The notes under the pieces were generated by a model. The model ran no database searches. It saw only the letters and a list, made by a program, of their open reading frames with translations, and was not told where the DNA came from. 40,127 nucleotides of DNA, from the IMG/VR virus record IMGVR_UViG_3300017781_000034, positions 1 through 40,127 of that record; one strand, written 5' to 3'. The stretch's first letter is position 1, and each line of letters opens with the position of its first letter. The translations under genes and the position numbers were made by a program. Origin of the DNA: a virus. This document shows, in pieces, positions 18,090 to 38,627 of the stretch.

Positions 18090-19198
18090 ATTATATCACT
18101 TTCAATGTCTGCACTTAAAGTGCTTTTAACATGATTCGTTCTTTTTGTCAATGCATTGTTTGCACTTGTGAACGTATTTTTAATGTAAGGCTGTACCGAA
18201 CTTATGTTTGTGTGTCCTGTAACTGACATAATCTGGCTAATATCTACACCTGCATCAACCATCTGTGTAACTCCAGTTCTTCGTAAGTCCATAAGTCGCA
18301 GTTCGTCAGACAGCCCTATCTTCCTCATGACACGCCTTGCCAACATTCCTATCTCATACTTCCCATAAGGTACATACACGCCCTGTACAGGCTTTATTTT
18401 GGGACATATATAGGGTTGGAAGCCGAACTCTTCCTTTTGTTGCTTCAACATGGTGTTCAAGTCTTCAGAGATAGGTAAAAACACTTGCGACCTACGTTTG
18501 GATTGCTCTAAAAACAACTCCGACCTCTCCAAAAATACATTTTCCCATTTTAACTCTCGCATATCGCCAATACGCTGACACCACTCGTATGCCATCTGTA
18601 CTATTAGTCCAATACTACGATATTTGAAGTCACTATAACAGAAGTCAAGCATTTTTATAACTTCTTCATCTGTCCAGACCACCTTTCTCTTCTTTGGCAG
18701 ACGTTTTTTTACAGATTTGTAAGGATTAAACGTGGTGTACTCCATATGCACAGCATAATTAAACACAACCGATGCACAAGAGCAAACATGATTCGCCAAA
18801 GTTACTCCTCGCTTTACCCAACCCTCGTATGCATTTTTTGCATCCCTAGTTGTAACCGACATAAACTTTTTTGATCCTGATGTCCGTCGCAAAATCTCTA
18901 AAAAATATTTATAGTCTACTTTAGAACTATCTCTTAACATACTGAAATCATTAGATAAATAGTAGCTGTCTATTAAATCTGACAATGTACTTGCCCTCTT
19001 AATATTTCTAATTTTCTCTTGACTCGACCTATAGTCATTTATTTTTTCATTAAACTGATTCGCAGCAACCCTCACTACACGCAGATCTGTACCCAGTTCT
19101 TTACGTTTTACCACTCCCTCGTCAACTAAAGTTTGTGGTGGGTTAAATCGGTAATGTGTCTTACCATCTGCCAGTTTACGTTTCTGTACATACCTCAT
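18086..19198 (-). CDS. int: Tyrosine recombinase / phage integrase
   Basis: A 370-residue integrase. It has a basic N-terminal arm-binding region (to about 65), a core-binding SAM-like domain (70-170) and a catalytic domain. Catalytic residues visible are R209 (CQRIGD), a likely beta-hairpin K234 (SKRR), R306 (DLRRTG), H329 (TGH) and Y338 (PYI). The box II histidine usually found three residues before R306 is M303 here, a variant tolerated in some families. It lies inside the replication operon and overlaps primase by four bases, which is unusual, since integrases normally sit beside attP. No excisionase or tRNA-like att core was recognised nearby. It implies integration ability, or a chromosome-dimer or concatemer role. 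Confidence 0.88.
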   Translation of the reverse strand: MRYVQKRKLADGKTHYRFNPPQTLVDEGVVKRKELGTDLRVVRVAANQFNEKINDYRSSQEKIRNIKRASTLSDLIDSYYLSNDFSMLRDSSKVDYKYFLEILRRTSGSKKFMSVTTRDAKNAYEGWVKRGVTLANHVCSCASVVFNYAVHMEYTTFNPYKSVKKRLPKKRKVVWTDEEVIKMLDFCYSDFKYRSIGLIVQMAYEWCQRIGDMRELKWENVFLERSELFLEQSKRRSQVFLPISEDLNTMLKQQKEEFGFQPYICPKIKPVQGVYVPYGKYEIGMLARRVMRKIGLSDELRLMDLRRTGVTQMVDAGVDISQIMSVTGHTNISSVQPYIKNTFTSANNALTKRTNHVKSTLSADIESDII

Positions 19199-20134: not shown

Positions 20135-20348
20135 TTAAATTATCCTCTTTAAATACTAAATCGCCATAATGACATTTCTTTTTGTACTCAAACCCATAGT
20201 CATGCTTAATTGCATATAGTAAATTTTCAAGTTCACATATGTGTTCATATGTAATAGGACATTTCTCCGATGTTGTTCTATCTATATCGGCTAACACATT
20301 GGCAAACTTTAGATACTTTGCCCTTAATTTTTCATCATTATGTTTCAT
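20127..20348 (-). CDS. Small hypothetical protein (73 aa)
   Basis: A 73-residue, mostly helical charged protein (ENLLYAIKHDYGFEYKKK) with three cysteine/histidine-containing spots that do not form an evident zinc site. The start overlaps the end of the C5 methyltransferase by 11 bases. Function unknown. Confidence 0.6.
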   Translation of the reverse strand: MKHNDEKLRAKYLKFANVLADIDRTTSEKCPITYEHICELENLLYAIKHDYGFEYKKKCHYGDLVFKEDNLND

Positions 20349-21363
20349 TATTTACTCCTTTCAAAATTGTGGATATAACGTCTACTGTGAAACCATTTCC
20401 AAGCATCTTATATCTCTGTGATTTACTAATCGGCTTTGTTGTGTAACGAATAAAGTTACCATCTTTATCGAACTGTTCACCACCCATGTCGCCATACTGA
20501 GTGTATCCATCAGGTACAGTTTGCAATCTCTCACATTCAAGAGGTGTTAAGGCTCTCCAATACATATCCCCACAAGTGACCTTTGGCTCTCTGTGACCAC
20601 CTTGCATCGTTGTCAGAGAGGGTGCTTTACCTTGTCGGCTGTATACCCTACGAATAATGTCATATCCCTTTATATCGGCTTCTCCGACTTGCTTACAGCC
20701 AATATTACCATTCTTATCAAACACTACTTGCCGTCTAGCTTTCTCGTAGTAGTGTCTAAGATTACCACCCTTGAAGTAGTTAGCATCTAGGCAATGTGAT
20801 TTATCTCTATCTGCCATAGCACCATCTTCAAGAATATCATTCATAACTATTCCACTATCAGACATAAGTTCCATGATATCAAATTCAATGTTTGTCCAAT
20901 ACAATCGCCTACGAGATTGCCCTGACTTTACACGACTATTTACCTCGTGACATACTACATCAGGGAATATACGTTGAAACATCTCTGTAAAGTAATCTTT
21001 CCAAACTTTTGGCATTGATGCAACATTCTCAATCAATATCTTATCTACATCTAACCCTTTGATAGCATCAAGTAATACCTTTGACATATCTCTTGGGTCT
21101 GATTGGAACTTCTGCAAACCTGCAACCGAATAACTCTGACAAGGAAACCCTGCAACCAAGAGGTCAATCTTTTTGCCCTTGAGAACTTCCCAATTTCGTG
21201 CATCACCATGACGAATGATGTTAGGATAGTTATACCGACTAACGGCACTTGAATAAGGGTCAATCTCAAAAGCGTGATATTCTACTGGTGTAATGCCTAG
21301 CTTGTCTAAAGCAATCATCGTACCCGAAAACCCATCGAAAAAACTTCCAACTATTTTATACAT
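20338..21363 (-). CDS. C5-cytosine DNA methyltransferase
   Basis: Transfers methyl from SAM to C5 of cytosine. Motifs in order: I, FDGFSGTMIALDKLG (near residue 10); IV, LLVAGFPCQSYSVAG with the catalytic cysteine; VI, LIENVASMP; VIII, QSRRRLYWTN; IX, RALTPLECERLQTVPDGYT; X, KMLGNGFTVDVI. All are in the normal order, and the 341-residue length is typical for a solitary enzyme. No cognate restriction nuclease is adjacent, so protection against host restriction is the likely role. Specificity cannot be read from sequence. A second, adenine-type methyltransferase is encoded in the late arm. Confidence 0.93.
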   Translation of the reverse strand: MYKIVGSFFDGFSGTMIALDKLGITPVEYHAFEIDPYSSAVSRYNYPNIIRHGDARNWEVLKGKKIDLLVAGFPCQSYSVAGLQKFQSDPRDMSKVLLDAIKGLDVDKILIENVASMPKVWKDYFTEMFQRIFPDVVCHEVNSRVKSGQSRRRLYWTNIEFDIMELMSDSGIVMNDILEDGAMADRDKSHCLDANYFKGGNLRHYYEKARRQVVFDKNGNIGCKQVGEADIKGYDIIRRVYSRQGKAPSLTTMQGGHREPKVTCGDMYWRALTPLECERLQTVPDGYTQYGDMGGEQFDKDGNFIRYTTKPISKSQRYKMLGNGFTVDVISTILKGVNNET

Positions 21364-21668: not shown

Positions 21669-22173
21669 TGTCAATCCTCATTTCACTTAACCACTCAGGC
21701 ATATATCTACCCTTGTTGTATCTAGCGAATCGCATCTTGTCAACATAATAAAACTTACGATAGGCATTTACTGGAAAGAACTCGTCTGTCTTTAAATGGT
21801 CATGCCCTGAAAAGCATTGAGGGTGGGGAGTCATTTTACCCTCTGGTATCCTAAATCTACCTTGCCACAAAGGTATTTGATGTTTACATGCACCATGAAA
21901 TTTGTCATATCTGTGAGTATACTCATGCAACATAACACTATATAATTTGTAAGCAAAAGTATAATTTTCTCTGTTCTCCATCGCCCAAAGAGTGCAAGGG
22001 TGCTTTTGATGAACTGGTTTATATAATCCCTCTTGTTCTGCATATTCAGGTGCATGATGCCATAAAGCTGTACAGAGCATCTGTGCTTCTTCCAATGGCA
22101 TCTTTACGATATGTTGGTCACATAGTGATTCTGCGATGCTCACAACGTCATAATCTATAATAAATCTATTCAT
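21649..22173 (-). CDS. Conserved phage protein with CDQHIVKM / EYTHRYDK motifs (174 aa)
   Basis: Contains a recognisable set of motifs: CDQHIVKMPLEEAQML, YKPVHQKHPCTLWA, YKLYSVMLHEYTHRYDKFH, and a C-terminal AYRKFYYVDKMRFARY. Proteins with this pattern recur in cyanophages and other tailed phages and are sometimes linked to pyrimidine-dimer DNA glycosylases. I am not certain of that link, and the function has not, to my knowledge, been shown. The several His, Glu and Cys residues could form a metal or active site. A GGAG ribosome site precedes the ATG. Confidence 0.7.
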   Translation of the reverse strand: MNRFIIDYDVVSIAESLCDQHIVKMPLEEAQMLCTALWHHAPEYAEQEGLYKPVHQKHPCTLWAMENRENYTFAYKLYSVMLHEYTHRYDKFHGACKHQIPLWQGRFRIPEGKMTPHPQCFSGHDHLKTDEFFPVNAYRKFYYVDKMRFARYNKGRYMPEWLSEMRIDNAENVL

Positions 22174-22377: not shown

Positions 22378-22712
22378 TAGTGTACAAATCCCCAAGTGAT
22401 TCGGTGTCTCATACCCTCGACAGTATCTGTAGCATCTGTCGAATCACCCTCTTCGTCACAACCCACAACTAATGCTTTGTTTACTAGCTGTACGTTTTGA
22501 TGCATAGAATGATTGCTATATCGGTAGGTAAACCACGCTTGTTTTGGTGAATACAATCCCTCGTCATCAACATAAATGCCATCATTACCAGTTGGAACGC
22601 TGACCACATCAAATGTCTTACAATCAATGAGGTCATATATTTTCGTATAATCACCATTGTAATCAACTTCTTTGATTTCTTTGGCGAATGGGTCAATTAA
22701 AATTGCTCTCAT
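22377..22712 (-). CDS. DUF3846-like protein (111 aa)
   Basis: Begins MRAILIDPFAKEIKEVDYNGDYTKIYDLI and continues with FDVV, IYVDDEGLY, and later ALVVGCDEEGDS. This matches the pattern of the DUF3846 family found in phages and plasmids (RAILIDP, Y-IY-LI, DDEGL, G-DEEG). The family has no known function. The length is usual. It overlaps both neighbours by one to four bases in the early operon. Confidence 0.75.
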   Translation of the reverse strand: MRAILIDPFAKEIKEVDYNGDYTKIYDLIDCKTFDVVSVPTGNDGIYVDDEGLYSPKQAWFTYRYSNHSMHQNVQLVNKALVVGCDEEGDSTDATDTVEGMRHRITWGFVH

Positions 22713-23092
22713 GCTACTTCTCCTTTTTTAAAAAATCTTTTTCCCATATCTTCAGTAAATAAATATTCTTTGTTGTTTGTCAAGTTTAAAACGATAAAAG
22801 GTTGCTTTCTTGCTTTCACTCTATACCCAACTAACTTATATTTAATACCATGCACATCAGCAACCTTTTGAGGTACTACATCATAAAGGTTAGCATATCT
22901 ATCTAAATCCATGCTCTCTTTACTCTCTATGTCTTTCACTCTCAAAGTTACTTTGTACGTCACTTCATACCCATCAAAGTTACAATCCCCCACCTTGATA
23001 TCATATTTATTGCTCAAAGAACTTTTATCATTCACTTCTTGTAGTTCATTTCGTAGAACTTGGCACGTTTTTTTGTCGATTGATTCTGTCAT
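22709..23092 (-). CDS. Hypothetical early protein (127 aa)
   Basis: Start chosen at ATG 23092 (MTESIDKKTCQVL), which has GAGGA upstream; a TTG six codons earlier is possible. The first 30 residues are helical with one cysteine. The remainder is beta-rich (YDIKVGDCNFDGYEVTYKVTLRVKDIE, YKLVGYRVKARKQPFIVLNL), suggesting a barrel-like fold. The order resembles small phage proteins that bind nucleic acid, but no family is recognised. Confidence 0.6.
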   Translation of the reverse strand: MTESIDKKTCQVLRNELQEVNDKSSLSNKYDIKVGDCNFDGYEVTYKVTLRVKDIESKESMDLDRYANLYDVVPQKVADVHGIKYKLVGYRVKARKQPFIVLNLTNNKEYLFTEDMGKRFFKKGEVA

Positions 23093-23093
23093 T

Positions 23094-23252
23094 TTATTCC
23101 TCACTTTCAAATTTTAATTTAACGTATGTTAACAACCATTCTTTTTCACTGATGTAAGAATAACTATCAAGAAAATCTTGCTTTGACAAGTAAAAAAAAT
23201 CGTTCATTTTTTCTTCATCATCACAAAAATCTTTATACTCAATATTAGTCAT
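23094..23252 (-). CDS. Small acidic protein, first gene of the long leftward operon (52 aa)
   Basis: A 52-codon frame from ATG at 23252 to TAA at 23094-23096, with a clear GAGAGGA ribosome site. It lies about 30 bases downstream of the predicted start of the leftward promoter at 23292-23320, so it should be the first gene of the long early operon. The protein is acidic and aromatic (DDEEKMNDFFYLSKQDFLDSYSYI). Being first after an early promoter, it may be a host-takeover protein; that is inference only. Confidence 0.65.
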   Translation of the reverse strand: MTNIEYKDFCDDEEKMNDFFYLSKQDFLDSYSYISEKEWLLTYVKLKFESEE

Positions 23253-23291
23253 TATTCCTCTCTTTCTATTATGTTAACTGTTTATTCCTCA

Positions 23292-23320
23292 GTTATACTA
23301 TATGATTCGTTTTATGTCAA
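23292..23320 (-). promoter_or_regulatory. Leftward sigma70-type promoter with GANTC in spacer
   Basis: On the minus strand, TTGACA (23320-23315), a 17-base spacer, then TATAAC (23297-23292). The spacer carries ACGAATCA, which includes GAATC, a GANTC site. It is placed to transcribe the 52-residue gene at 23252 and the long early operon beyond. Confidence 0.7.
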
Positions 23321-23344
23321 TATATTTATTTTCTTTTTCCCATT

Positions 23345-23355
23345 CCCCCCCCCCC
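23345..23355. repeat. Homopolymer run of 11 C (G on the transcribed-sense strand)
   Basis: Eleven C in a row on the plus strand, followed directly by TGACCGAT. On the minus strand it is a G11 run lying 24 bases upstream of the -35 box at 23320. A second tract of exactly the same length occurs at 24308-24318, upstream of the matching promoter. In an AT-rich genome two such runs are striking, though homopolymer lengths are error-prone in sequencing. Confidence 0.85.
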
Positions 23356-23376
23356 TGACCGATTTGCATCTTAGGG

Positions 23377-23399
23377 AAAAGGGAGTCGTTAAACTCCCC
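23377..23399 (-). terminator. Hairpin terminator after the GP88-like unit
   Basis: The arms GGGAGT (23381-23386) and ACTCCC (23393-23398) enclose a six-base loop. Read leftward, the stem is followed by TTTT. The stop codon of the 42-residue gene lies inside the hairpin. It would end the short transcript of 24232-23389 just before the next leftward promoter. Confidence 0.6.
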
Positions 23400-23517
23400 A
23401 ATTTCCTATTTTCTTATTTTTTCGCTGATTCTTACGTTTTAAAGTTTTTTCTTTTAGCAATTCTTTTTTTTCTAAAAACTTTTTTATCTTTTCAATTCTA
23501 ATAAATTTTTTATCCAT
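23389..23517 (-). CDS. Small highly basic protein (42 aa)
   Basis: A 42-codon frame from ATG at 23517 to TAA at 23389-23391. The start overlaps the stop of the GP88-like gene by eight bases (ATGGATAA), and AAGG lies upstream. About half of the residues are Lys or Arg (IEKIKKFLEKKELLKEKTLK). It ends in the loop of the terminator, so it is the second and last gene of that short unit. RNA or DNA binding is plausible from charge alone. Confidence 0.5.
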   Translation of the reverse strand: MDKKFIRIEKIKKFLEKKELLKEKTLKRKNQRKNKKIGNWGV

Positions 23518-24232
23518 AATTTTTAACCTTTTCAACTATAATATTTTCGGCATTAAAAGTATAGCACGCCATGCAATCTTTACATTTTTGACCAGTACAG
23601 TTTTGATCCTCTATAAACTTATCTTTATGAACGTTATTAAACACTTTATTAAAGTTTTTTGGAATCTTCTTTAATATATGATTCTTTTTTGGGTTAGAAT
23701 ATACCATAATCACGTTGTCAGGTTTTGCAAAGTGTCTAAAATATTCATTTATTAAATCAGTTCTTTTTGTCCAATAAGCAAAAACCGTAGTTGGATTCTT
23801 GCGAATAATACTAAATATATTGATAACGTGAGTCATGTTTATATTTTCACCATGACTCGCAATTCTCAAATATTTTTGCATTATTAAAGGTAATACCGAA
23901 TCAGGCAATATAGACTCACTTAATAGTTGACTATTTCTTTCAAGACACTCTTGCATATTTTTTCGCATACCCAACAATAAAGCAAATGAATAACAATTTT
24001 TGCAAATTGTATCTGTTTTTTTATTGTGCTGTTTTTGGCAAAATTCATTTGTAAGTGTATTAGTTGAAATAGAATCTATATCTAATAACTTTCCACTTCC
24101 CTTTGAAATATGCACTTTCAAAAATCCAATTTTCTCAAATACTTTTCTACCCTTAGACTCTAACCAACTATCAAAATCTAAATTAATATTATACTTGTTA
24201 ATAAAATCTTTATGTTTAATAATATCTAACAT
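23510..24232 (-). CDS. GP88-like cysteine-rich phage protein (240 aa)
   Basis: I start this at ATG 24232, downstream of the promoter at 24267-24295. A longer frame to 24385 would read through the G11 tract and the promoter and is unlikely to be translated. Cysteines are paired as C65, C77 and C80 (ICKNCYS) and C212, C217, C220 and C223 (NCTGQKCKDCMACY). The segment between includes RIASHGE and NPTTVFAYWTKR. This layout, with CxxCY followed by an Arg/Gly-Glu segment and a tryptophan-Thr-Lys motif, resembles the GP88 family first named in mycobacteriophages, thought to bind iron-sulfur or a similar cofactor. Function unknown. It has its own promoter and terminator, separate from the replication operon. 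Confidence 0.65.
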   Translation of the reverse strand: MLDIIKHKDFINKYNINLDFDSWLESKGRKVFEKIGFLKVHISKGSGKLLDIDSISTNTLTNEFCQKQHNKKTDTICKNCYSFALLLGMRKNMQECLERNSQLLSESILPDSVLPLIMQKYLRIASHGENINMTHVINIFSIIRKNPTTVFAYWTKRTDLINEYFRHFAKPDNVIMVYSNPKKNHILKKIPKNFNKVFNNVHKDKFIEDQNCTGQKCKDCMACYTFNAENIIVEKVKNYG

Positions 24233-24266
24233 TTCATACCTATATGTTTTAATTAATATTAAATTT

Positions 24267-24295
24267 ATTCTATAGTGATTCGTTTTAAATATCAA
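24267..24295 (-). promoter_or_regulatory. Leftward promoter with GANTC in spacer, twin of the one at 23292
   Basis: On the minus strand, TTGATA (24295-24290), a 17-base spacer, then TAGAAT (24272-24267). The spacer contains AAAACGAATCA at the same place as in the promoter at 23292-23320. A G11 run (24308-24318) and a CTGACCGAT box lie just upstream. It should drive the GP88-like gene at 24232. Confidence 0.65.
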
Positions 24296-24307
24296 TATAA
24301 AAAGACT

Positions 24308-24318
24308 CCCCCCCCCCC
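24308..24318. repeat. Second homopolymer run of 11 C
   Basis: Eleven C on the plus strand, flanked by TATCGGTCAG, which is the reverse complement of the CTGACCGAT box. It lies 12 bases upstream of the -35 box of the promoter at 24267-24295. It is the same length as the tract at 23345-23355. Confidence 0.85.
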
Positions 24319-24339
24319 TATCGGTCAGATTTTTTTTGC

Positions 24340-24394
24340 TTGTCATTTTTTTGACAAAATCCGAGTCAATTTTTTGACGCGTCAATTTTTTGAC
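24340..24394. promoter_or_regulatory. Three GTCA-N6-TGAC dyads (candidate operators)
   Basis: Three inverted repeats in a row: TTGTCA-T6-TGACAA (24340-24357) and two copies of GTCAA-T4-TTGAC (24365-24378 and 24381-24394). All share GTCA, six A/T bases, TGAC. Two more with the same spacing are at 25091-25106 and 25131-25148. Fixed half-site spacing suggests a dimeric DNA-binding protein. Confidence 0.55.
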
Positions 24395-24418
24395 GGCAGC
24401 TTTTTGACACTTGGAATC

Positions 24419-24455
24419 AAAAAAACCCTGCTAACCTTTTACAGCTAGCAGGGTT
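24419..24455 (-). terminator. Strong intrinsic terminator of the 24496-24879 gene
   Basis: A perfect 10-bp stem, AACCCTGCTA (24424-24433) with TAGCAGGGTT (24446-24455), and a 12-base loop. Read leftward it is followed by a run of seven T. It lies 41 bases past the stop of the gene at 24496. On the plus strand no T run follows, so it works leftward only. Confidence 0.85.
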
Positions 24456-24495
24456 AATATTTAAGTATAAACTATTTACATTTACTAAATGGCTT

Positions 24496-24879
24496 TTATT
24501 TAGCCATGACACTCTTTATTGAACCACTATGTAAATTTGGTTTAAAGTTTATACTTATATTGAACACACCATTAATCTCTCTCATTCTCAATGTACGTGC
24601 CAATTCTCTTGTCTTGGAGTCTGCTAATACCCACAAATGTTCAAAACCTTTTTTCTTACATTTGGTGTAGACTAATTCACTCCAACCTTTTCCAGTTTTT
24701 AAATTATAAAGATCAATTACATTTCCAAGAATTGCATTTGATCGAACAATATTCCCACTATTTTTTGAATAACCAACCTTAACATGATAGTCTTGACGTA
24801 TTGTCAAAAATGGTCGGTTGGTATCATAATTTGGGTTAATATCGAAAATTGATAATGTGTTTTTTTTAATAGTTGTCAT
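24496..24879 (-). CDS. Hypothetical monocistronic early protein (127 aa)
   Basis: Start chosen at ATG 24879 (MTTIKKNTLSIF), with AAAGGA upstream. A start 13 codons earlier would place the conserved TGATTCGTTTT element inside the coding region. The protein has a beta-rich first half (RPFLTIRQDYHVKVGYSKN) and later ARTLRMREINGVFNISINFKP. It has its own strong terminator and a presumed promoter upstream, and it is the first leftward gene next to the control region. By position (first gene, single-gene transcript, flanked by palindromes) it could be a regulator, but I see no helix-turn-helix or known family. Confidence 0.65.
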   Translation of the reverse strand: MTTIKKNTLSIFDINPNYDTNRPFLTIRQDYHVKVGYSKNSGNIVRSNAILGNVIDLYNLKTGKGWSELVYTKCKKKGFEHLWVLADSKTRELARTLRMREINGVFNISINFKPNLHSGSIKSVMAK

Positions 24880-25073
24880 GGCTTTATTCCTTTCTTTAAA
24901 TGATTCGTTTTTTACCATATCTAATTATGCGATTTTTTACGCCATAAGTAAATAAAAAGATTCAAATATTGTAAATTTTTTTAAAATCGCGATTTGCTGC
25001 AAGTGTGACATTTTTGCAACACATTTAAAAAAAATTATATTTGTTGTAAATATTGCTTGACGAATCACCTAAC

Positions 25074-25091
25074 CTGACCGATCTGACCGAT
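25074..25091 (+). repeat. Tandem CTGACCGAT boxes
   Basis: Two perfect, directly abutting copies of the 9-mer CTGACCGAT (25074-25082 and 25083-25091). The same box, or its first-base variant, flanks both C11 tracts (TGACCGAT after 23355; ATCGGTCAG after 24318). The tandem pair runs straight into a GTCA-N6-TGAC dyad. Confidence 0.75.
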
Positions 25092-25452
25092 GTCAAATAA
25101 TTGACACAAGCACACTCATTTTTTTCTTGACTGTCATTTTATTGACAGCTCTTTTTTTTGATTCGCGAATCGTTAACTGTTAGAATTACAGTTTTTAAAA
25201 TGTCAATAGTTCTTTATTTATATGATTATTTTATTATTTTGGTGTCTCATATATACATCTTGACTTTCCACCACACGTTGATAACCCTTTTTTCTACCAC
25301 AATATCGGTTTGATTCGGCTATGCGACCATGCAAGCGTCAGGGTGGGGTGTACAGTACGTATGCTTGGATATATACACAGATCAGGAAAATTAAGTGTTA
25401 ACCACAGAGTTAACCTTGAATGGGATAAAAACTAGGATTTCATAAATAAGTG

Positions 25453-25481
25453 TTGACAACCTCTCAATAATAGTGTATAAC
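25453..25481 (+). promoter_or_regulatory. Rightward sigma70-type promoter
   Basis: TTGACA (25453-25458), a 17-base spacer, TATAAC (25476-25481). It faces the rightward arm and gives an untranslated leader of about 115 bases before the ATG at 25607. The capsid gene has a near twin (39525-39552), also followed by ACTA after the TATA. Confidence 0.75.
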
Positions 25482-25490
25482 TAAGATGTT

Positions 25491-25576
25491 CACTTTAAGT
25501 GAGACACTATAAGTGTATATTAGTCTAAATGTATATAAACATTTAAATGTAACATTATAAATGTAGATTAGATTAA
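25491..25576 (+). repeat. Leader with palindrome and two copies of a 21-base element
   Basis: CACTTTAAGTG (25491-25501) is followed by element copy 1 (25508-25528) and copy 2 (25556-25576), 48 bases apart. The element reads TATAAGTGTA, a variable base, ATTA, a variable base, TCTAA. Copy 2 matches copy 1 at 17 of 21 positions. A third copy (19 of 21) lies in the capsid leader at 39600-39620. Between the copies lies the palindrome ACATTTAAATGT (25539-25550). Confidence 0.7.
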
Positions 25577-25606
25577 TTATACGTAAATGTAAAATAATCC
25601 TTGACA

Positions 25607-25825
25607 ATGAGTAAAAAATCAGTAAAACTATATACTGAAGATGTAATTTCGTGTTTCTATAAAGCTATCCGTACAAACACCCTCGACAAATTACATATAC
25701 CCCACAGTGATGTATTCTATGTACGTAATGCTATTGAAGCACGTACAGGAGAGCGATACACGCTAAAGCGTATTGAAGACGCTATGATCGCAGAAGGATG
25801 GCTCGAAAAGGAAGAGGAAGACTAA
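25607..25825 (+). CDS. First rightward gene, small conserved-looking protein (72 aa)
   Basis: I start at ATG 25607 (MSKKSVKLYTEDV); a TTG two codons upstream is possible. There is no clear ribosome site, so initiation is unusual. The protein is helical with a positively charged middle (YVRNAIEARTGERYTLKRIEDAMIAEGWLE) ending in an acidic tail. The arrangement could be a small winged-helix-type DNA-binding fold, but no family is recognised. As the first gene after the long structured leader it may be a regulator of the rightward arm. Confidence 0.65.
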   Translation: MSKKSVKLYTEDVISCFYKAIRTNTLDKLHIPHSDVFYVRNAIEARTGERYTLKRIEDAMIAEGWLEKEEED

Positions 25826-25826
25826 A

Positions 25827-26756
25827 ATGGCTAGTAAAACGGAAAAGGCGATGAAGGAAGCAGGTTTTAAGTTTGGATTTGGAATGAACAAACCTAAACC
25901 TACATCAAGCTTAGCAGAAGGATTAAGAAGAAGATTATCTAAAAGTGGAATGTCTGCTGCGGATAAGAGAAAGTTAAAACAGTTACAAACAGAACAACAA
26001 AAGCGTGACGCTTCTAAAACTGCAGGTGAAAGATCTGCTAAAGCTAAAATAGCCGCAGCTGAGAAAGCTGCAAAGAAGAAAAAAGCTACAGAAGAAGCAA
26101 AGAAAATGCTAAAAACTAAGAGAATGGATAAGCCTAAAAAGAAGACTCCTGCTAAATCTGTAATGTCGGATGCTCAGAAAAAAGGGCAAGCAGGTACAAG
26201 ACAAACTAAAAAGGATCTTGGTCCTAAAGGATCTGTGCCTAAATCAGTTTCAGCTGCTCAAAAGGCAGGAAAGCTGTACTTCATGGACAAAAACAATAAA
26301 GCTAAGTTAGCTATAACTGCTGCACAACTTACAACATTCATGAAAGCTAAAGGCATAAAGTCCAGAAAAGAAGCTTTAACAAAATTTGCAAACACCTACA
26401 AGCCGGGAACAGGAATGGCTAAATTCAAAGCTGACATGAAAAAGATGGCTATGGGTGGTGCTGCGATGAAAAAGAAAGGCATGGCTATGGGCGGCTCTAT
26501 GAAGAAAAAGGGCATGGCTATGGGTGGCATGAAAAAGAAGGGTTACGCAATGGGTGGTTTGAAAGCTACTAATCCTTCCCAAGTAGGACTAAAAAAACTA
26601 CCAACAAACGTGCGTAACAAAATGGGCTACATGAAAAAAGGTGGCATGACCAAAAAAGGTTATGCTAAAGGTGGCTCTATGAAGAAGAAAGGTTATGCTA
26701 TGGGGGGCATGCCTAAAAAGTACGGTGTAGTGGACAACCGAAAAACTAAAAGGTAA
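25827..26756 (+). CDS. Lysine-rich protein with MKKKGxAMGG repeats (309 aa)
   Basis: A very basic protein. Residues 40-110 are an Ala/Lys helix (KAKIAAAEKAAKKKKATEEAKK) like histone H1 tails. Residues 155-200 look like a compact SAP-like or small helical domain (TAAQLTTFMKAKGIKSRKEALTKF). From about 205 to the end, the unit MKKKGxAMGG is repeated about seven times with small changes (DNA 26440-26720). Similar Lys/Gly/Met repeats occur at the ends of other proteins in this window. A DNA-condensing or virion-associated role is plausible. It ends in a TAATG overlap with the HNH gene. Confidence 0.7.
   Translation: MASKTEKAMKEAGFKFGFGMNKPKPTSSLAEGLRRRLSKSGMSAADKRKLKQLQTEQQKRDASKTAGERSAKAKIAAAEKAAKKKKATEEAKKMLKTKRMDKPKKKTPAKSVMSDAQKKGQAGTRQTKKDLGPKGSVPKSVSAAQKAGKLYFMDKNNKAKLAITAAQLTTFMKAKGIKSRKEALTKFANTYKPGTGMAKFKADMKKMAMGGAAMKKKGMAMGGSMKKKGMAMGGMKKKGYAMGGLKATNPSQVGLKKLPTNVRNKMGYMKKGGMTKKGYAKGGSMKKKGYAMGGMPKKYGVVDNRKTKR
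26440..26720 (+). repeat. In-gene tandem repeats encoding MKKKGxAMGG
   Basis: Imperfect direct repeats of about 30 bases, built on ATGAAAAAGAAAGGC followed by ATGGCTATGGGTGGC, recur across the 3' end of the lysine-rich gene. Three units are nearly contiguous (about 26467-26560) and others follow after a 75-base gap. Unit number could vary by slippage. Confidence 0.75.
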
Positions 26757-27010
26757 TGGTCCAGAAGCGAAACTACCGTAAAGAGCATCTTACGTATGAC
26801 GGTCTTCCTAAACGTAAGAAAGCTCGTGCTGCCAGAGGAAGAGCAAGATATGCTCTGATGAAAGAAGGCAGGGTAAAAGTGGGGGATAAAAAGCAGGTAG
26901 ATCATAAGAACATGAATCCTAACGACAACCGTAGGTCAAACTTACGTGTTCTACCTGCTAAACTCAACATGTCTAGGCAACCTGCGAGAAAGCCTAGAAG
27001 ACGTAAATAG
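26756..27010 (+). CDS. HNH-type nuclease, minimal (84 aa)
   Basis: The C-terminal half has an HNH signature: VDHKNMNPNDNRRSNLRVLPAKLNMSR (DH, then N-N-D-N---NLR). The N-terminal 40 residues are very basic (RKEHLTYDGLPKRKKARAARGRARY) and probably bind DNA. At 84 residues it is a minimal HNH protein, smaller than homing enzymes. HNH proteins close to terminase genes can assist packaging, though here terminase is 4.5 kb downstream. It could also be a stand-alone nicking enzyme. It starts within the previous stop (TAATG). Confidence 0.8.
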   Translation: MVQKRNYRKEHLTYDGLPKRKKARAARGRARYALMKEGRVKVGDKKQVDHKNMNPNDNRRSNLRVLPAKLNMSRQPARKPRRRK

Positions 27011-27035
27011 TATATGGGTAAATTGCTTTAGCAAT

Positions 27036-27557
27036 ATGGGTAAGCGTAGTAATTTTGAGAGAAGAGAAAGAGACTATTACAGGACACCAGAAGAAGCCTT
27101 AATACCTCTTTTAAAGCACATCGACTATATCACATATAATTTTATAGAGCCGTGTGCAGGTGATGGAACGCTAACATCACTTCTACTGAAATACACAGAT
27201 GGTAAGTGTTTATACCAAAGTGACATTGAACCACAAGAAAAAGGTATTTTAGTAAAAAATGTTCTTGACATTGAGGACAAACCAGACTATTATATAACAA
27301 ATCCACCTTGGAATAGAAAGCTATTACATCCGATAATAGAACATCTAAGCGACTTATCTCCAACGTGGCTGTTATTCGATGCAGACTGGATACATACAAA
27401 ACAGAGCAGACCTTATCAACAACGATTACAAAAGATAGTAAGTGTAGGCAGAGTGAAGTGGATACCAGACAGCAAAATGACAGGCAAAGATAATTGTTGT
27501 TGGTATCTGTTTAACAAAGACAACAAAGATCAAACGGTTATATACGGTAAGGAGTAA
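27036..27557 (+). CDS. SAM-dependent adenine-type DNA methyltransferase (173 aa)
   Basis: Start chosen at ATG 27036 (MGKRSNFERRERDYYRTP); the longer frame to 26946 overlaps the HNH gene and looks non-coding. Motif I is FIEPCAGDGTL (residues 36-46), and the catalytic motif IV is TNPPW (88-92), the N6-adenine/N4-cytosine amino-methyltransferase signature. The DYYRTP segment before motif I is typical of phage adenine methylases. The 173-residue length is short, leaving little for a target-recognition domain. Together with the C5 methyltransferase it suggests layered protection against restriction. The recognition site is unknown; GANTC is an attractive guess given the host-type promoters. Confidence 0.8.
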   Translation: MGKRSNFERRERDYYRTPEEALIPLLKHIDYITYNFIEPCAGDGTLTSLLLKYTDGKCLYQSDIEPQEKGILVKNVLDIEDKPDYYITNPPWNRKLLHPIIEHLSDLSPTWLLFDADWIHTKQSRPYQQRLQKIVSVGRVKWIPDSKMTGKDNCCWYLFNKDNKDQTVIYGKE

Positions 27558-27560
27558 TCA

Positions 27561-28298
27561 GTGTCCTATTTACAAAGTAATGTCCCATACTTCAAAGCGT
27601 GGGTAAGAAGAGAATACACAACAAATTTTCAACGAGGTCATGGCGAGTTTTTACATTGTATGGTAATAGCCGTGACATCAATGCCGAATAGATGTTTATC
27701 GTTTCAAGTGATCTTTACTGGATGTGAAACAGACGATACAGACGAACAGAACGTAACTGGTGGTGCAATGTGGGCGAGGATGCCTATTACAGCCTTAGTA
27801 GGTGATACACCAGTAGATGATTGGGCAAAAGAGTTGCCACCGTATATTGCACAACCTTGGGATTGTATGTCACATGACCACAGCGTGTATGTACTCAACA
27901 GAGCAACTCCTGCACCTTGGATAGCGAAAGTGGATGGTGAGTTTTATCCTGCAAAGTATTACTTCACCGTAGATTACACGAATAGCGAAATTGCAGACGA
28001 TCCTGCACAACACAAACAAAGTCATGTGCTAGAGCTAATGAACGCAGGTGAATATACAGGAAACATAGTGGCACTACCAAACAACAGAGTCAGAGTAACA
28101 CATCCTGCGTGGTTCGAGACTGGAACAGGCTCACCTGACTTCAGACCTTCCCAAAGAATTTTTCATTCTAAACAAGAGATTGAATATGTGTGGAACACTG
28201 ATAGAGTGTTCAATAACCTATACGCAGAGGATACCGATGACAACCAGAGCCAAAGCAACAATAAAAAAAGTAGCAGGAAAGCTAAAAAAAGCAAGTAA
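27561..28298 (+). CDS. Hypothetical protein, beta-rich with basic tail (245 aa)
   Basis: Starts with GTG at 27561 (MSYLQSNVPYFKAWVRREYT), three bases after the previous stop with GGAG close by. The body is beta-rich with many aromatic residues and three to four cysteines (FTGCETDDTD, PWDCMSHDH). It includes FEVD-like acidic loops and AWFETGTGSPDFRPSQRIFHSKQEIEYVWN. The C-terminus is a run of Asp, Ser, Asn and Lys ending KKSSRKAKKSK. I recall similar genes beside small basic proteins in marine podoviruses, all uncharacterised. The next gene starts inside it in another frame. Confidence 0.65.
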   Translation: MSYLQSNVPYFKAWVRREYTTNFQRGHGEFLHCMVIAVTSMPNRCLSFQVIFTGCETDDTDEQNVTGGAMWARMPITALVGDTPVDDWAKELPPYIAQPWDCMSHDHSVYVLNRATPAPWIAKVDGEFYPAKYYFTVDYTNSEIADDPAQHKQSHVLELMNAGEYTGNIVALPNNRVRVTHPAWFETGTGSPDFRPSQRIFHSKQEIEYVWNTDRVFNNLYAEDTDDNQSQSNNKKSSRKAKKSK

Positions 28299-28521
28299 AG
28301 CTCATGCAAAGCAATCAAAAGCGTTATCATCCCTAAAGTTAAACAAAGGTGGTAGCACAGTAAACCAAGCAGGTAACTATACAAAGACGGGAATGAGAAA
28401 AAGAATGTTCTCAGCAATCAAGGCAGGTTCTTCTGGGGGTAATCCCGGGCAGTGGTCTGCAAGAAAAGCACAGTTATTAGCGGCACGATATAAGAAAGCA
28501 GGTGGGGGCTATAAGTCGTAA
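28237..28521 (+). CDS. Small basic protein with GQWSARKAQLLA motif (94 aa)
   Basis: Start chosen at ATG 28237 (MTTRAKATIKK), with AGAGGA upstream, inside the previous gene. The C-terminal half reads YTKTGMRKRMFSAIKAGSSGGNPGQWSARKAQLLAARYKKAGGGYKS. I recognise this as a common conserved module in marine phage and virome sequences, usually hypothetical. It is strongly basic. Neighbours of the same kind (28521-28820, 28789-29037, 30578-30901) form a cluster that may be internal virion or DNA-binding proteins. No function is established that I know of. Confidence 0.75.
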   Translation: MTTRAKATIKKVAGKLKKASKAHAKQSKALSSLKLNKGGSTVNQAGNYTKTGMRKRMFSAIKAGSSGGNPGQWSARKAQLLAARYKKAGGGYKS

Positions 28522-28820
28522 TGGCTGATCCTAAGAAAGGGACAGGCAAAAAGCCGAAAGGTAGCGACAGAAGGCTCTATACGGATGAAAATCCTAAAGA
28601 TACAGTAAGTATAAAGTATGCGACAGTAAAAGATGCAAAAGAAACTATTGCAAAAGTTAAGAAAATTAAGAAACCCTATGCGAGGAAGATACAAATCCTC
28701 ACCGTTCTTGAACAACGAGCTAGGGTTGCAGGAAAAACTGAGCAAGCTGCCCTTGCAAAGAAGGCAAAAGAGCAATTAAGGAGACAACATGGCACTAAAA
28801 CAAAGCCAAAGAAGTCTTAA
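28521..28820 (+). CDS. Small basic protein with SDRRLYTDENPKDTV motif (99 aa)
   Basis: Begins MADPKKGTGKKPKGSDRRLYTDENPKDTVSIKYAT, followed by VKKIKKPYARKIQILTVLEQRARVAGK. I recall this combination as a family frequent in marine phages and always next to the GQWSARKAQ protein. The first codon overlaps the previous stop (TAATG). It is basic with a helical C-terminal half. Function unknown. The constant neighbourhood suggests the three small basic proteins work together. Confidence 0.75.
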   Translation: MADPKKGTGKKPKGSDRRLYTDENPKDTVSIKYATVKDAKETIAKVKKIKKPYARKIQILTVLEQRARVAGKTEQAALAKKAKEQLRRQHGTKTKPKKS

Positions 28821-29037
28821 ATCATGGACAAAACAGAAATGGAGAACCAAAAGTGGTAAGCCCAGTAAGAAAACTGGAGAACGCTATCTTCCAACAGCTG
28901 CAATCAAGGCTCTATCACCCCAAGAGTACGCAGCGACAACTAGAGCTAAAAGAAAAGGCACAGCATCAGGCAAACAATTCGTTAAACAGCCTAAAGGCAT
29001 CGCTAAAAAGACGAGAAGTTATCGAAAAGTTACATAA
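28789..29037 (+). CDS. Small basic protein with SLKSWTKQKWRTKSGKPS motif (82 aa)
   Basis: Reads QRSLKSWTKQKWRTKSGKPS, TGERYLPTAAIKALS, EYAATTRAKRKGT, then KQFVKQPKGIAKKT. This is a well-recurring phage/virome family that I believe is Pfam DUF5872, although I cannot confirm the number here. The start overlaps the preceding gene by 32 bases. Strongly basic with two tryptophans near the start; no enzymatic motif. The role is unknown. Nucleic-acid binding in the virion or during packaging is a reasonable guess. Confidence 0.78.
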   Translation: MALKQSQRSLKSWTKQKWRTKSGKPSKKTGERYLPTAAIKALSPQEYAATTRAKRKGTASGKQFVKQPKGIAKKTRSYRKVT

Positions 29038-29054
29038 TATAGGATATTTTGAAA

Positions 29055-29318
29055 ATGATAGTTGAAGCATGGTTTGCTGTAGCAGTAATGCTAGGAGTTT
29101 ATGATAACGGTATGCAGGATATATTAGTTTTTAAGCAACCAAAACACGGACACTTTCACAGTGTAGATGAATGTAAAGAGTTTGTAAAGAATAATCCTGA
29201 ACCTCTTGTAAAAACTGTATGGAAGTTCTATGGGCAAAGACCTGTAGAAAGAGTTATATGTGTAAACGAAGATGTGCTTAATAAATTCATAGCACAGAAT
29301 AATAGCGTAGACAGTTGA
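29055..29318 (+). CDS. Small probably exported protein (87 aa)
   Basis: Start chosen at ATG 29055 (MIVEAWFAVAVMLGVYDNG). The first 18 residues are hydrophobic and may be a signal anchor. The rest is polar with two cysteines (VDECKEF and RVICVNE) that could pair in the periplasm. The pattern of a short N-terminal hydrophobic region, a GMQDILVFKQP strand and SVDECKEFV resembles small exported phage proteins of unknown function. It lies just before the lysis genes and overlaps the next start by one base (TGATG). Confidence 0.65.
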   Translation: MIVEAWFAVAVMLGVYDNGMQDILVFKQPKHGHFHSVDECKEFVKNNPEPLVKTVWKFYGQRPVERVICVNEDVLNKFIAQNNSVDS

Positions 29319-29461
29319 TGCTCTATGAGCCTACATGTGACGTTTGTGGGCATCACATTGAAGATGATAAATGTGAGTATTGTGAGAAAACTGGGGACAA
29401 TGGGGACTGGGTAGAGGAAGTTATAAAGGATAAAGATAAAAATGACTCCAGAAACACTTGA
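29318..29461 (+). CDS. Zinc-ribbon miniprotein (47 aa)
   Basis: A 47-codon frame from ATG 29318 to TGA 29459-29461. It has two CxxC pairs close together (TCDVCGHH and KCEYCEKT), a likely zinc knuckle, followed by an acidic tail (GDWVEEVIKDKDKND). It overlaps the previous gene by one base and the next by 20, so it fits the tight packing of this block. Role unknown; the zinc site suggests structural or regulatory binding. Confidence 0.6.
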   Translation: MLYEPTCDVCGHHIEDDKCEYCEKTGDNGDWVEEVIKDKDKNDSRNT

Positions 29462-29669
29462 CAGATGGCAAATACTTCCAAGACTTATGATGCTAGTGAT
29501 GACAGGCGTTTATATACGCTGTATCGAATGGGCTTTGAGTCAGCCAGAGTTGACCACACAACAAGCAGGGTTGATATCCGTGATTACAGGGGCGATGACA
29601 GGATCTTTCGCCATATGGATGGGAGCAGAGAAGTCAGAACCCAAAAGAATGGAGAGGGAAGAACGATGA
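29442..29669 (+). CDS. Two-span holin-like membrane protein (75 aa)
   Basis: Begins MTPETLDRWQILPRLMMLVM, followed by two hydrophobic segments (about 12-32 and 42-62, the second GLISVITGAMTGSFAIWMG) and a charged tail. I recall a common marine phage family with the same MTPETLDRW opening directly upstream of 3TM holins, so a lysis or antiholin role is likely. It is followed, overlapping as ATGA, by a micro-ORF and then the 3TM holin. Confidence 0.72.
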   Translation: MTPETLDRWQILPRLMMLVMTGVYIRCIEWALSQPELTTQQAGLISVITGAMTGSFAIWMGAEKSEPKRMEREER

Positions 29670-29752
29670 ACTGGAAGATATGGAGATACTTTAAAAGAAT
29701 ATGGTGTGCTATCTTAAATAAAAAGTGCCATGAAGATTGTGACTGCGTATAA
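29666..29752 (+). CDS. Cysteine-ended 28-residue miniprotein in the lysis cassette
   Basis: A 28-codon frame between ATG 29666 (overlapping the previous TGA as ATGA) and TAA 29750-29752 (overlapping the next ATG as TAATG). GGAGAGGG lies upstream as a strong ribosome site. The protein is an amphipathic basic and aromatic helix (NWKIWRYFKRIWCAIL) and ends with a cysteine cluster (KKCHEDCDCV). Tight coupling on both sides supports it as real. It may be a membrane-bound lysis accessory. Confidence 0.6.
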   Translation: MNWKIWRYFKRIWCAILNKKCHEDCDCV

Positions 29753-30111
29753 TGATAGGTACACTGCTTAGTTCAGTAACGAGTTTAGCGTCTTCATACA
29801 TAGATGGTAAGACAGCCATACAGAAGGCTGAAGCTACTATCAAGATGAAGGAAGCTACTGGTGAGATAGACTGGGACTTAGCTGCTATGAGGGCATCCCA
29901 AAGCTCGTGGAAGGACGAATGGCTTACATTGCTGTTCAGTATTCCTCTGATCTTGAGCTTTTGTGGGTCATGGGGCAGGGGTGTAGTAGCAGACGGATTT
30001 GAAGCACTGGCAGGTATGCCACAGTGGTATCAGATTGCATTGGGAGCTATCGTGAGTGCAAGTTTTGCTACACGATCTGCAGGTAAGTTTTTTAATAAGA
30101 GGAAGAAGTAA
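29752..30111 (+). CDS. Holin, GTA-type 3TM family (119 aa)
   Basis: Residues 1-50 form an amphipathic helical N-terminus. Hydrophobic spans follow (WLTLLFSIPLILSFCG and WYQIALGAIVSASFATRSAG), matching the holin family first seen in gene transfer agents (3TM holin). The order MIGTLLSSVTSLASSYIDGKTAIQKAE, then WKDEW before the first strong span, is typical. It forms membrane holes that release the endolysin encoded directly downstream (overlap of one base). Confidence 0.82.
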   Translation: MIGTLLSSVTSLASSYIDGKTAIQKAEATIKMKEATGEIDWDLAAMRASQSSWKDEWLTLLFSIPLILSFCGSWGRGVVADGFEALAGMPQWYQIALGAIVSASFATRSAGKFFNKRKK

Positions 30112-30578
30112 TGGCGTTTAAATTATCAGGAAGAAGTTTAGGAAAACTAGAAGGTGTACATCCTGTACTGGTAGACACAGTTAAACGTGCCATTGAAGTG
30201 AGCAAAGTGGACTTTGGAGTGATTTATGGTGTCCGTTCCCTTGCAGAACAAAAAAGATTGTATGAAGCAAAAAGATCACAAACGATGAAATCTAAACACC
30301 TTGTACAAGAAGATGGATATTCACATGCTGTCGATTTAATGGCTTATGATGGTAGTGACCCAAGTTGGGACATCGTGATGTACGATGACATAGCTGACGC
30401 AATGAAGCAAGCAGCACTAGAAATTGGAGCTAAAATTTGTTGGGGAGCTTCATGGCATATAGATAATATAGCTGAGTGGGACGGAACAATGGAAGCAGCG
30501 ATGAACGCTTATGTAGATTTACGTAGAAGTCAAAACCGCCGCCCATTTATTGATGGTCCTCATTTTCAAGTAAGCTGA
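30111..30578 (+). CDS. Endolysin, M15 (D-alanyl-D-alanine / L-Ala-D-Glu type) peptidase
   Basis: A zinc peptidase that cuts peptidoglycan cross-bridges. The motif SKHLVQEDGYSHAVDLM (from residue 61) gives the zinc ligands H63 and D75, and the C-terminal DGPHFQ gives H151. The 155-residue length is normal for single-domain phage endolysins such as T5-like Lys. There is no signal peptide, so release depends on the upstream holin. A second lysin (SleB type) is encoded in the early arm. Confidence 0.9.
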   Translation: MAFKLSGRSLGKLEGVHPVLVDTVKRAIEVSKVDFGVIYGVRSLAEQKRLYEAKRSQTMKSKHLVQEDGYSHAVDLMAYDGSDPSWDIVMYDDIADAMKQAALEIGAKICWGASWHIDNIAEWDGTMEAAMNAYVDLRRSQNRRPFIDGPHFQVS

Positions 30579-30901
30579 TGGCGTTACCTGAACGAGTCAA
30601 AAATAAGATGAAGGATGTAGGTCTGAGAGCAGTCAACAAAGCTCAAAGACTACCTGACAGTGATACATCTGGTAAATCACATCACGTTATGGCTAGTGAG
30701 GGTGGCAAGTATAAGTACATAAAGTTTGGACAAAAGGGTGTAAAGACTAACCAGACAGTTGGACAGAGAAAAGCATTTAAAAGTAGACACGCTAAGAATA
30801 TAGCCAAGGGTAAATTATCTGCGGCATATTGGGCAGACAAAGTTAAATGGAGTCCAAGTAAAACTAAATCTCCTTCTAAGAAATGGAAAAAGGGTTCATA
30901 A
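30578..30901 (+). CDS. Small basic conserved protein with SARHAKNI-like core (107 aa)
   Basis: Contains KSHHVMASEGGKYKYIKFGQKGV, then KAFKSRHAKNIAKGKLSAAYWADKVKW. I recall this as a frequent virome family (KARHAKNIAKGKMSAAYWADKVKW). It is basic and of unknown function, and it sits between the endolysin and terminase genes. No catalytic motif. It belongs in type with the basic cluster at 28237-29037. Confidence 0.75.
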   Translation: MALPERVKNKMKDVGLRAVNKAQRLPDSDTSGKSHHVMASEGGKYKYIKFGQKGVKTNQTVGQRKAFKSRHAKNIAKGKLSAAYWADKVKWSPSKTKSPSKKWKKGS

Positions 30902-31270
30902 ATGGCACGACAACTTACAGAAAAACAACAAAAGTTACTAGCTGTATTATTTGACGAAGCAGGAGGTGACTTAGTTATGGCTAAGAAGTTAGCAGGATAT
31001 TCTGATGCATCAAGCACAACAGAAGTAATGAGGGGCATCAAAGACGAAATACTAGAAGCTACACAAGACTATATGGCTAGAAATGCACCACGAGCTGCTG
31101 TTGCGATTGCAGGGGGTTTGATAGATCCAACAGAGCTAGGTATACGTGACAAACTAGCTGCAGCGAAAGAGTTACTTGACAGAACTGGTTTAGTAAAAAC
31201 AGAAAAGATGCAAGTAGAAGCTACAGGTGGTGTGATGTTAATGCCACCAAAAGAAAAAGGCAATGAATAG
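30902..31270 (+). CDS. Probable terminase small subunit (122 aa)
   Basis: Begins LTEKQQKLLAVLFDEAGGDLVMAKKLAGYSD, a pattern of small terminase proteins with an N-terminal helix-turn-helix that binds the packaging site. It continues with helices (RDKLAAAKELLDRTGLVKTEK), whose RTGLVK-like ending I recall from marine phage small terminases. The start is one base after the previous stop. The following gene also looks DNA-binding, so either may do the recognition step. Confidence 0.6.
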   Translation: MARQLTEKQQKLLAVLFDEAGGDLVMAKKLAGYSDASSTTEVMRGIKDEILEATQDYMARNAPRAAVAIAGGLIDPTELGIRDKLAAAKELLDRTGLVKTEKMQVEATGGVMLMPPKEKGNE

Positions 31271-31670
31271 ATCATTAGGTAAGTGGACACTACCACAACC
31301 CACAGACATGAAAGAAGAAGAAGAGTGGGTAGCTATACCTAAGATAGCAAGAACAGTACCGTTTGGTTATGTTGTAGATGAAAACGATCCAGATGTTTTG
31401 CAACCAGTAAAGTTAGAGTTAGATTTATTAGAACAGGCAAGAGCATACACACGACAGTATTCATACAGGCAAGTTGCCAACTGGCTAACAAAAAACAGTG
31501 GACGAGAAATATCTCACGTAGGATTGATGAAACGGTTAAAGAATGAGCGACAACGTAAGAACAAAGTTACAAGCTTACGCAAGTGGGCAGAGTATGCCGA
31601 AAAAGCGATTAACAAAGCGAAAGAACTCGAAGAAAGTCGTACAGGAGCAAAAACAGAAGCCACCAGTTAA
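31263..31670 (+). CDS. Helix-turn-helix protein adjoining terminase (135 aa)
   Basis: Overlaps the previous gene by eight bases and the large terminase by up to 128. Residues 60-100 look like a helix-turn-helix: ARAYTRQYSYRQVANWLTKNSGREISHVGLMKRLKN. The C-terminus is charged and partly dual-coded with the terminase start. The position directly before the large terminase is usual for a small subunit or packaging cofactor, so it may share this role with the 122-residue protein upstream. Confidence 0.65.
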   Translation: MNRSLGKWTLPQPTDMKEEEEWVAIPKIARTVPFGYVVDENDPDVLQPVKLELDLLEQARAYTRQYSYRQVANWLTKNSGREISHVGLMKRLKNERQRKNKVTSLRKWAEYAEKAINKAKELEESRTGAKTEATS

Positions 31671-33102: not shown

Positions 33103-33103
33103 T

Positions 33104-35260: not shown

Positions 35261-35414
35261 TTATATAAATTTTTTAATAGCACAAAACCACGCTGTTATG
35301 GAGCAGACAAACGAATTAGTTATACTGCACAGATCACAAGGTGCTATTATGATATTAAGACGATTGCGACAACTAAGAGATAATGTAAACGCAAATGGAA
35401 AGAATCAAACCTAA
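35178..35414 (+). CDS. Small helical late protein (78 aa)
   Basis: Overlaps the portal 3' end by 83 bases in another frame and the next gene by 20. The protein is helical: DQWDSFNDYINFLIAQNHAVMEQTNELVILHRSQGAIMILRRLRQLRDNV. I recall a similar short protein with an HRSQGAI-like motif after the portal gene in marine podoviruses. A head-assembly or connector accessory is likely by place. No domain known. Confidence 0.68.
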   Translation: MQNNLQDKLLSKLKPLVNNKDQWDSFNDYINFLIAQNHAVMEQTNELVILHRSQGAIMILRRLRQLRDNVNANGKNQT

Positions 35415-38556: not shown

Positions 38557-38627
38557 ATCCACATTATGTTGGCTACCTAACTCCCCATCAACATGGCAAC
38601 AGTTAGCCCTAACGAAAGGTAAAGTAA

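Follow-up and report, generated by a model that had tools for sequence, protein, structure and literature searches.

Do two leftward promoters in a marine phage genome, each with a GANTC site between its -35 and -10 elements, respond to the DNA methylation of the host, and are the sequence box and the G-run that accompany them part of the same switch? The question is raised by a 40,127-bp stretch of DNA (the window), which corresponds to the IMG/VR virus record IMGVR_UViG_3300017781_000034. The original prediction had described the two promoters, here called P1 and P2, as belonging to matching control modules in which a box, a run of eleven Gs and a promoter with GANTC in its spacer follow one another, and had suggested that the phage times its early units by the methylation state of host DNA. 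With moderate confidence, we read P1 and P2 from their sequence as host-sigma70 promoters of leftward early or accessory genes, with a GcrA-type element in the spacer, and the box and G11 run as a separate feature.

The window comes from a phage of the HMO-2011 type. Phages of this type are marked by a family A DNA polymerase with a partial DnaJ (CXXCXGXG) insert and by a colinear genome. The window's polymerase (679 aa) has hundreds of relatives among viral contigs and contains two CXXC stretches. The order of the integrase, replication and polymerase genes approximates that in HMO-2011-type phages, and the terminase/portal side matches the Roseobacter phages CRP-1, CRP-345, CRP-603 and CRP-2, which are in or akin to the HMO-2011-type group (PMC6918029). 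The cultured relatives of this type infect Rhodobacteraceae and SAR116, hence Alphaproteobacteria (PMC6918029). From about 25 kb, the genes for replication and early functions read leftward, whereas the structural genes read rightward, and we therefore regard 23-25.6 kb, which lies between the two sets, as the control region. The window is an incomplete genome, since contig G804, which is 99.99% identical to positions 24329-40127, continues for 2.65 kb beyond the window's end. The window is without tRNAs and its 22.5-26 kb part without matches to Rfam families, and profile searches of the window found neither GcrA (PF07750) nor an N6_N4 methyltransferase. A C5-cytosine DNA methyltransferase (PF00145) is encoded at 20338-21363 on the minus strand, within the leftward early operon.

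Both promoters lie on the minus strand. P1 (23292-23320) reads, together with its upstream elements, ATCGGTCA-G11-(24 nt)-TTGACA-TAAAACGAATCATATAG-TATAAC, and P2 (24267-24295) reads CTGACCGATA-G11-(12 nt)-TTGATA-TTTAAAACGAATCACTA-TAGAAT; the -35 and -10 elements are 17 nt apart in each. Both spacers contain AAAACGAATCA. The GANTC sites (23304-23308 in P1, 24277-24281 in P2) are thus located inside the promoters, as in GcrA/CcrM promoters, and their context, CGAATCA on the promoter strand and TGATTCG on the plus strand, is an exact match to the published extended motif TGATTCG/YGAKTCK that GcrA activates. The GAATC fills positions 7-11 of the P1 spacer, which leaves 6 nt up to the -10 element, and positions 9-13 of the P2 spacer, which leaves exactly 4 nt. 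The 11-mer TGATTCGTTTT occurs three times in the window (23303, 24276 and 24901), where 0.035 copies are expected. The third copy of AAAACGAATCA (24901-24911, minus strand) is located outside promoter spacers, in the leader or N-terminus of a 140-aa ORF. As P1 and P2 are dissimilar outside the motif, they are not recent duplicates. A generic sigma70 scan of the control region found 21 sites, which is at chance level (18.1 in shuffles). Two further matches were discarded as promoter evidence: 18123-18151 (TTGACA..CGAATCA..) is coding DNA for the conserved integrase C-terminus, and the match to the promoter pattern at 21715-21743 is also in coding DNA.

Directly behind P1 is a small ORF of about 55 aa (23084-23252, minus strand), followed by a 133-aa ORF (22709-23110, minus strand). 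P2 serves a gene for about 240 aa (23510-24239, minus strand), which has a weak GP88/DUF5131 match below the cut-off, and whose homologue in contig L091 is 87% identical and has no P2 upstream. The 140-aa ORF, annotated at 24496-24918, more likely starts with the ATG at 24879 (24496-24879, minus strand). Behind it, a hairpin with T-run that resembles an intrinsic terminator (24424-24455, minus strand) parts the ORF from the P2 unit. Another promoter-like site, TCGTCA-N18-TATAAT, is present at 25034-25063 on the minus strand, with a GATTC that overlaps its -35 element. Near the boxes, at 24342-24394 and 25092-25146, there are five GTCA-N6-TGAC dyads (starting at 24342, 24365, 24381, 25092 and 25133; 0.03 expected from shuffles of the region), which look like operators for some regulator or replication protein.

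The distribution of GANTC in the window is highly uneven. The control region (23000-25600) contains 24 sites against 5.5 expected, a 4.3-fold enrichment (obs/exp 4.34), whereas the motif is depleted on both sides, with 26 sites against 75 expected in 1-22999 (obs/exp 0.35) and 19 against 41 in 25601-40127 (obs/exp 0.47). In one study, about half of the pelagiphages examined were GANTC-depleted (PMC9516812). Since the coding sequence of the P2-served gene contributes to the cluster, noncoding DNA was counted separately. The 1,233 bp of noncoding control-region DNA contain 13 sites, where 2.6 are expected and none of 400 shuffles gave more than 7. YGAKTCK is matched by eight of these sites (23% in shuffles), but this preference is not significant when the control region is compared with the rest of the window (8/13 vs 21/56, Fisher p 0.13).

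Conservation was assessed in related contigs and in isolates. In the diverged relative L279, which is 79-92% identical to the window where the two can be aligned and about 90% identical in the P1 flanks, P1 has not a single base change. It stands there directly before the 133-aa ORF, the window's small ORF being absent. P1 is also the same in contig L086, which is from the same species as the window. Contigs L185 and L208, the latter an HMO-2011-type relative as judged from its integrase end, each have GANTC in the spacers of two promoters. Among 105 HMO-type loci, however, promoter-like sites with a spacer GANTC are at chance level (about 13-15 of 564). HMO-2011, CRP-1, CRP-2, CRP-345 and CRP-603 resemble the window in genome plan, DNA polymerase, integrase and terminase/portal, but have none of its GANTC-spacer promoters. 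Such promoters are a trait of some lineages, not of the HMO-2011-type group. Two observations concern other contigs. In L158 and L161, which are related to the window, the integrase end reads TTGACACAACGAAACGAATCACTTATATAAT, a coding sequence that could also pass for a GANTC promoter with a spacer of 19 nt. The contig of another relative has a (CGGA)n repeat at its end (L012:1-130), upstream of a TTGACT-TATAAC promoter that lacks GANTC, and contigs of its group tend to terminate in simple repeats at this region.

Box and G-run do occur in the same order at both promoters when read leftward, and the original description was right in substance, with corrections of detail. At P1, the CTGACCGAT box (23355-23363, plus strand) shares its last base with the G11 run (23345-23355, minus strand). 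At P2, the box (24320-24328, minus strand) is inverted relative to that at P1, and a single A separates it from the run (24308-24318, minus strand). CTGACCGAT occurs exactly four times in the window: once in each module, in opposite orientations, and twice in a tandem pair without G-run (25074-25091, plus strand). The two 11-base runs are the only runs of G or C in the window with a length of at least seven, and there are six nine-G matches against 0.04 in shuffles. Chance had been considered an unlikely source of two such copies, and the G-runs, the box copies, the common 11-mer and the GANTC cluster all exceed it. Between them, the two modules delimit a 956-bp stretch that holds P2 and its gene and has on its two sides the C11 runs in direct and the boxes in inverted orientation.

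As a general unit, the combination of box, G11 and promoter does not survive comparison, because a box or a run of more than five Gs was found within 100 nt of none of the 67 GANTC-spacer promoters in nine other contigs. CRP-1 and CRP-345 have neither boxes nor G-runs. Apart from L086, other contigs with G8-TTGA-ACGAATCA do not contain clear promoters, and L282, which has ATCGGTCAGGGGGGG, is not similar to the window. We take box and G11 to be a separate local feature that bounds the 956-bp accessory cassette, a cassette edge or an operator and not part of the methylation switch.

Several contigs end at the cassette edges, which may reflect sequencing difficulty, variation in run length, or presence and absence of the cassette. 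L086 ends at most 2 nt from the P1 box, and its last stretch (L086:7424-7458 of this IMG/VR contig) is a terminal Illumina adapter, TCTTCCGATCT, with a low-complexity tail rich in G and A. G804, also of the same species, begins with 24329, the base next to the P2 box, and L279 terminates in G7AGGAGAAAAA, in which the G7 may be genuine or stem from a tail added to the library. All three ends could speak for box and G-run as artefacts of library preparation or assembly, but the window crosses both runs with unique sequence on either side, run and box are common to the window and the separately named L086, and G804 too contains the tandem boxes at 25074, so that we consider an artefact very unlikely. 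Poly-C promoters of Bordetella fimbriae undergo phase variation through slippage that changes the length of the run. A switch of this type, in which slippage in the G-run would bring an operator box closer to the promoter or move it away, is in line with the presence, in both modules, of the box on one side of the run and the promoter on the other, with the ends of other contigs at these places, and with a run that is G11 in the window and G10 in L086, where just one other difference occurs in 7,431 bp. Against it speak the error-prone length of homopolymers in short reads, the opposite orientations of the boxes at the two sites and the lack of a G-run at any other GANTC promoter, and we think it unlikely as well.

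P1 and P2 have counterparts in many uncultured phages. Viral contigs were scanned with the pattern TTGAYA-N(0-5)-AAACGAATCA, in which no -10 element is demanded. The scan led to many unrelated contigs in which a near-perfect -10 element stands at spacing 17, in most cases ahead of a ribosome-binding site and an ATG. When the GANTC was broken in a decoy pattern (AAACGTATCA), a -10 element was present at 7 of 103 sites, compared with 32 of 110 for the intact pattern, and at the preferred spacing (a gap of 4 nt) the figures were 1 of 20 and 26 of 42. Promoters in long contigs were also picked by their -35 and -10 elements only, without use of GANTC. By this procedure, 21 of the 32 consensus promoters with 17-nt spacers in contig G002 (155 kb) and 23 of 53 with 16-17-nt spacers in G001 (342 kb) carry GANTC in the spacer, with fewer than 1.3 expected in either case. 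In 20 of 55 promoters of G001 and 18 of 35 of G002, exactly 4 nt separate the end of the site from the -10 element (about 0.1 expected), and in 16-nt spacers the site shifts along with the -10 element (position 8 in 9 of 14). When the pattern was counted over whole records, matches were confined to one strand within each record, and the reversed pattern gave none.

In all 48 distinct promoters the site is GAATC, preceded by C (44) or A (4) and followed by A (43), G (4) or T (1), and an ATG is found within 45 nt in 45 of them. The consensus, MGAATCR, reads YGATTCK on the other strand and is contained in YGAKTCK. Mismatches in near-matches are mostly outside GAATC, flanking bases being lost and GAATC kept. 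The contigs were chosen for having at least one match, so the position and base counts within contigs can be read, but not the prevalence of the class among phages. By their capsid and terminase genes, G001 and G002 are closest to PA5oct (Pseudomonas), Phosso (Sinorhizobium) and Atu_ph07 (Agrobacterium), and by its capsid gene, contig G010 is closest to Melnitz (OM43) and to Mosig and HTVC008M (SAR11). The class is therefore present in unrelated lineages, PA5oct/Phosso-like, pelagimyovirus-like and HMO-2011-type. The peak at a gap of 4 nt is absent from these isolates, and the strict class is absent from the tested isolates, some of them from alphaproteobacterial hosts, CRP-1, CRP-2, CRP-345, CRP-603, HMO-2011, HTVC008M, Mosig, phiCbK, phiM12, SIO1, Atu_ph07 and Phosso.

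Other searches and contigs yielded additional observations. G010 (IMGVR_UViG_3300030328_002122) has a second layout, in which the -10 element is immediately followed by GATTCG (TATAGTGATTCG; for example at 132434, 139921 and 140178). It is seen in 3 of 21 consensus promoters, where 0.19 would be expected. G002, G014 and G019 (L276, L275 and L274), phages with many GANTC promoters, encode an N6 adenine methyltransferase of 288 aa. The best match of the G002 enzyme among solved structures is CcrM (6pbd, 2.9e-21), but it cannot be called CcrM, since it scores 98 bits against the CcrM equivalog NF050803 (NCBIfam), far under the cut-off of 830. The N6_N4 methyltransferase of G010 was rejected as CcrM because it is a long enzyme with a different layout, and no GcrA homologue was found among 21 phage records. 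A short BLAST search of named phages, with the promoter as query, retrieved for the most part generic promoters from phages of Gram-positive bacteria. A genome scan with the exact pattern gave nine matches, mostly in Clostridia and Prevotellaceae and two in Alphaproteobacteria. Such class-wide searches are no test of GcrA, as they mainly reflect the abundance of consensus promoters in Clostridia, which have them in 77 of 391 genomes, against 5 of 385 for Alphaproteobacteria.

On the simplest reading, P1 and P2 would be promoters of the GcrA/CcrM type, together with the wider class. Alphaproteobacteria methylate GANTC and use this mark in timing their cell cycle. GcrA prefers methylated GANTC (PMC3667746), binds domain 2 of sigma and stimulates open complex formation at m6A promoters (PMC7403470), and in Caulobacter the extended motif TGATTCG/YGAKTCK goes with activation by GcrA (PMC7987155). 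A site close upstream of the -10 element would fit an activator bound to this domain. We infer the following sequence of events. Host CcrM would methylate the adenines of the GANTC sites in P1 and P2, and the host's GcrA, attached to the polymerase at domain 2 of sigma, would read the mark and speed up open complex formation. Incoming DNA that had been methylated in the previous host could then fire these promoters at once, and the hemimethylated or unmethylated copies produced by replication would fire more weakly until CcrM has acted on them. Early transcription would thereby be coupled both to replication and to the cell cycle of the host, and this is how the phage might time its early units by host methylation, as had been suggested.

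Several points argue against a role of GcrA: the site in P1 is 6 nt and not 4 nt from the -10 element, part of the window's GANTC cluster falls inside one coding region, the YGAKTCK preference of the control region is not significant, the tested isolates lack the strict class, HMO-type loci as a whole are at chance level, and few genomes of Alphaproteobacteria have such consensus promoters. Moreover, the N of GANTC is A without exception, so that a factor that reads GAATC and is blind to methylation could be at work. In that case some other host repressor or activator would recognize (A)CGAATCA whether or not it is methylated, and the overlap with GANTC would be incidental. The A in 48 of 48 promoters, the conserved flanks and the A-rich bases that the flanking sequences have in common are compatible with such a factor. 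It does not sit well with the abrupt end of conservation after GAATC and two flank positions, with a flank degeneracy (M, R) that equals the published GcrA motif, with the location near the -10 element, which suits a sigma2-bound activator, or with the enrichment of GANTC in other contexts in the window's control region, and we consider it doubtful. P1 and P2 might also be plain strong sigma70 promoters without a regulator, the common AAAACGAATCA being a relic of duplication or chance. Close isolates do manage without the element, and HMO-type loci overall have it in chance numbers, but the dissimilarity of P1 and P2 outside the motif, the frozen P1 of L279, and the recurrence at a fixed position in unrelated phages, which is lost with the decoy, make this highly improbable. 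The motif match, the GANTC enrichment, the conservation of P1, the fixed-position recurrence and the failure of the decoy considerably strengthen the original view that these promoters may work like GcrA promoters, without proving it.

The window's promoters share sigma70 elements, GANTC and TGATTCG/YGAKTCK with the GcrA/CcrM promoters of Caulobacter crescentus and other Alphaproteobacteria, such as those of mipZ, podJ and ctrA P1 (PMC3667746, PMC7987155). They differ from them in that the class sits in phage genomes, has near-consensus -35 and -10 elements, and has its site locked 4 nt from the -10 element. Phage genes under host GcrA, as predicted here, have a precedent in a prophage operon of Brevundimonas subvibrioides, apparently defective, that RNA-seq found to be GcrA-dependent; a fixed promoter class is not described in the accessible part of that report (PMC7987155). 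Phages of Alphaproteobacteria with CtrA-controlled promoters, which have arisen in several lineages and are associated with “lytic deferment”, likewise place sites for a host cell-cycle regulator in their promoters, but the regulator is CtrA, its site is unrelated and methylation is not involved (PMC9437464). phiCbK-like phages encode a GcrA homologue (PMC3556154), and Sinorhizobium phages have CcrM analogues (cited in PMC9437464). These phages engage GcrA and CcrM through proteins of their own, whereas the window would do so through promoter sites only.

Tentatively, and without yet calling it probable, we propose a class of phage promoters built around the host's m6A cell-cycle mark, in which a GANTC in GcrA context, about 4 nt before a near-perfect -10 element, would make firing dependent on how each single phage DNA molecule is methylated. 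The class would have evolved separately in at least three lineages, HMO-2011-type podoviruses, pelagimyovirus-like phages and PA5oct/Phosso-like jumbo phages. The 48 distinct promoters make the methylation idea directly testable with short synthetic promoters. If it is correct, the depletion of GANTC elsewhere in such genomes and its enrichment in the control region would be explained, and the sequence signature would help to predict the promoters of uncultured phages and, perhaps, their alphaproteobacterial hosts. Some marine phages would then time the firing of their genes by an epigenetic mark of their present or previous host, and such a phage could tell parental from newly copied DNA and follow the cell cycle of its host.
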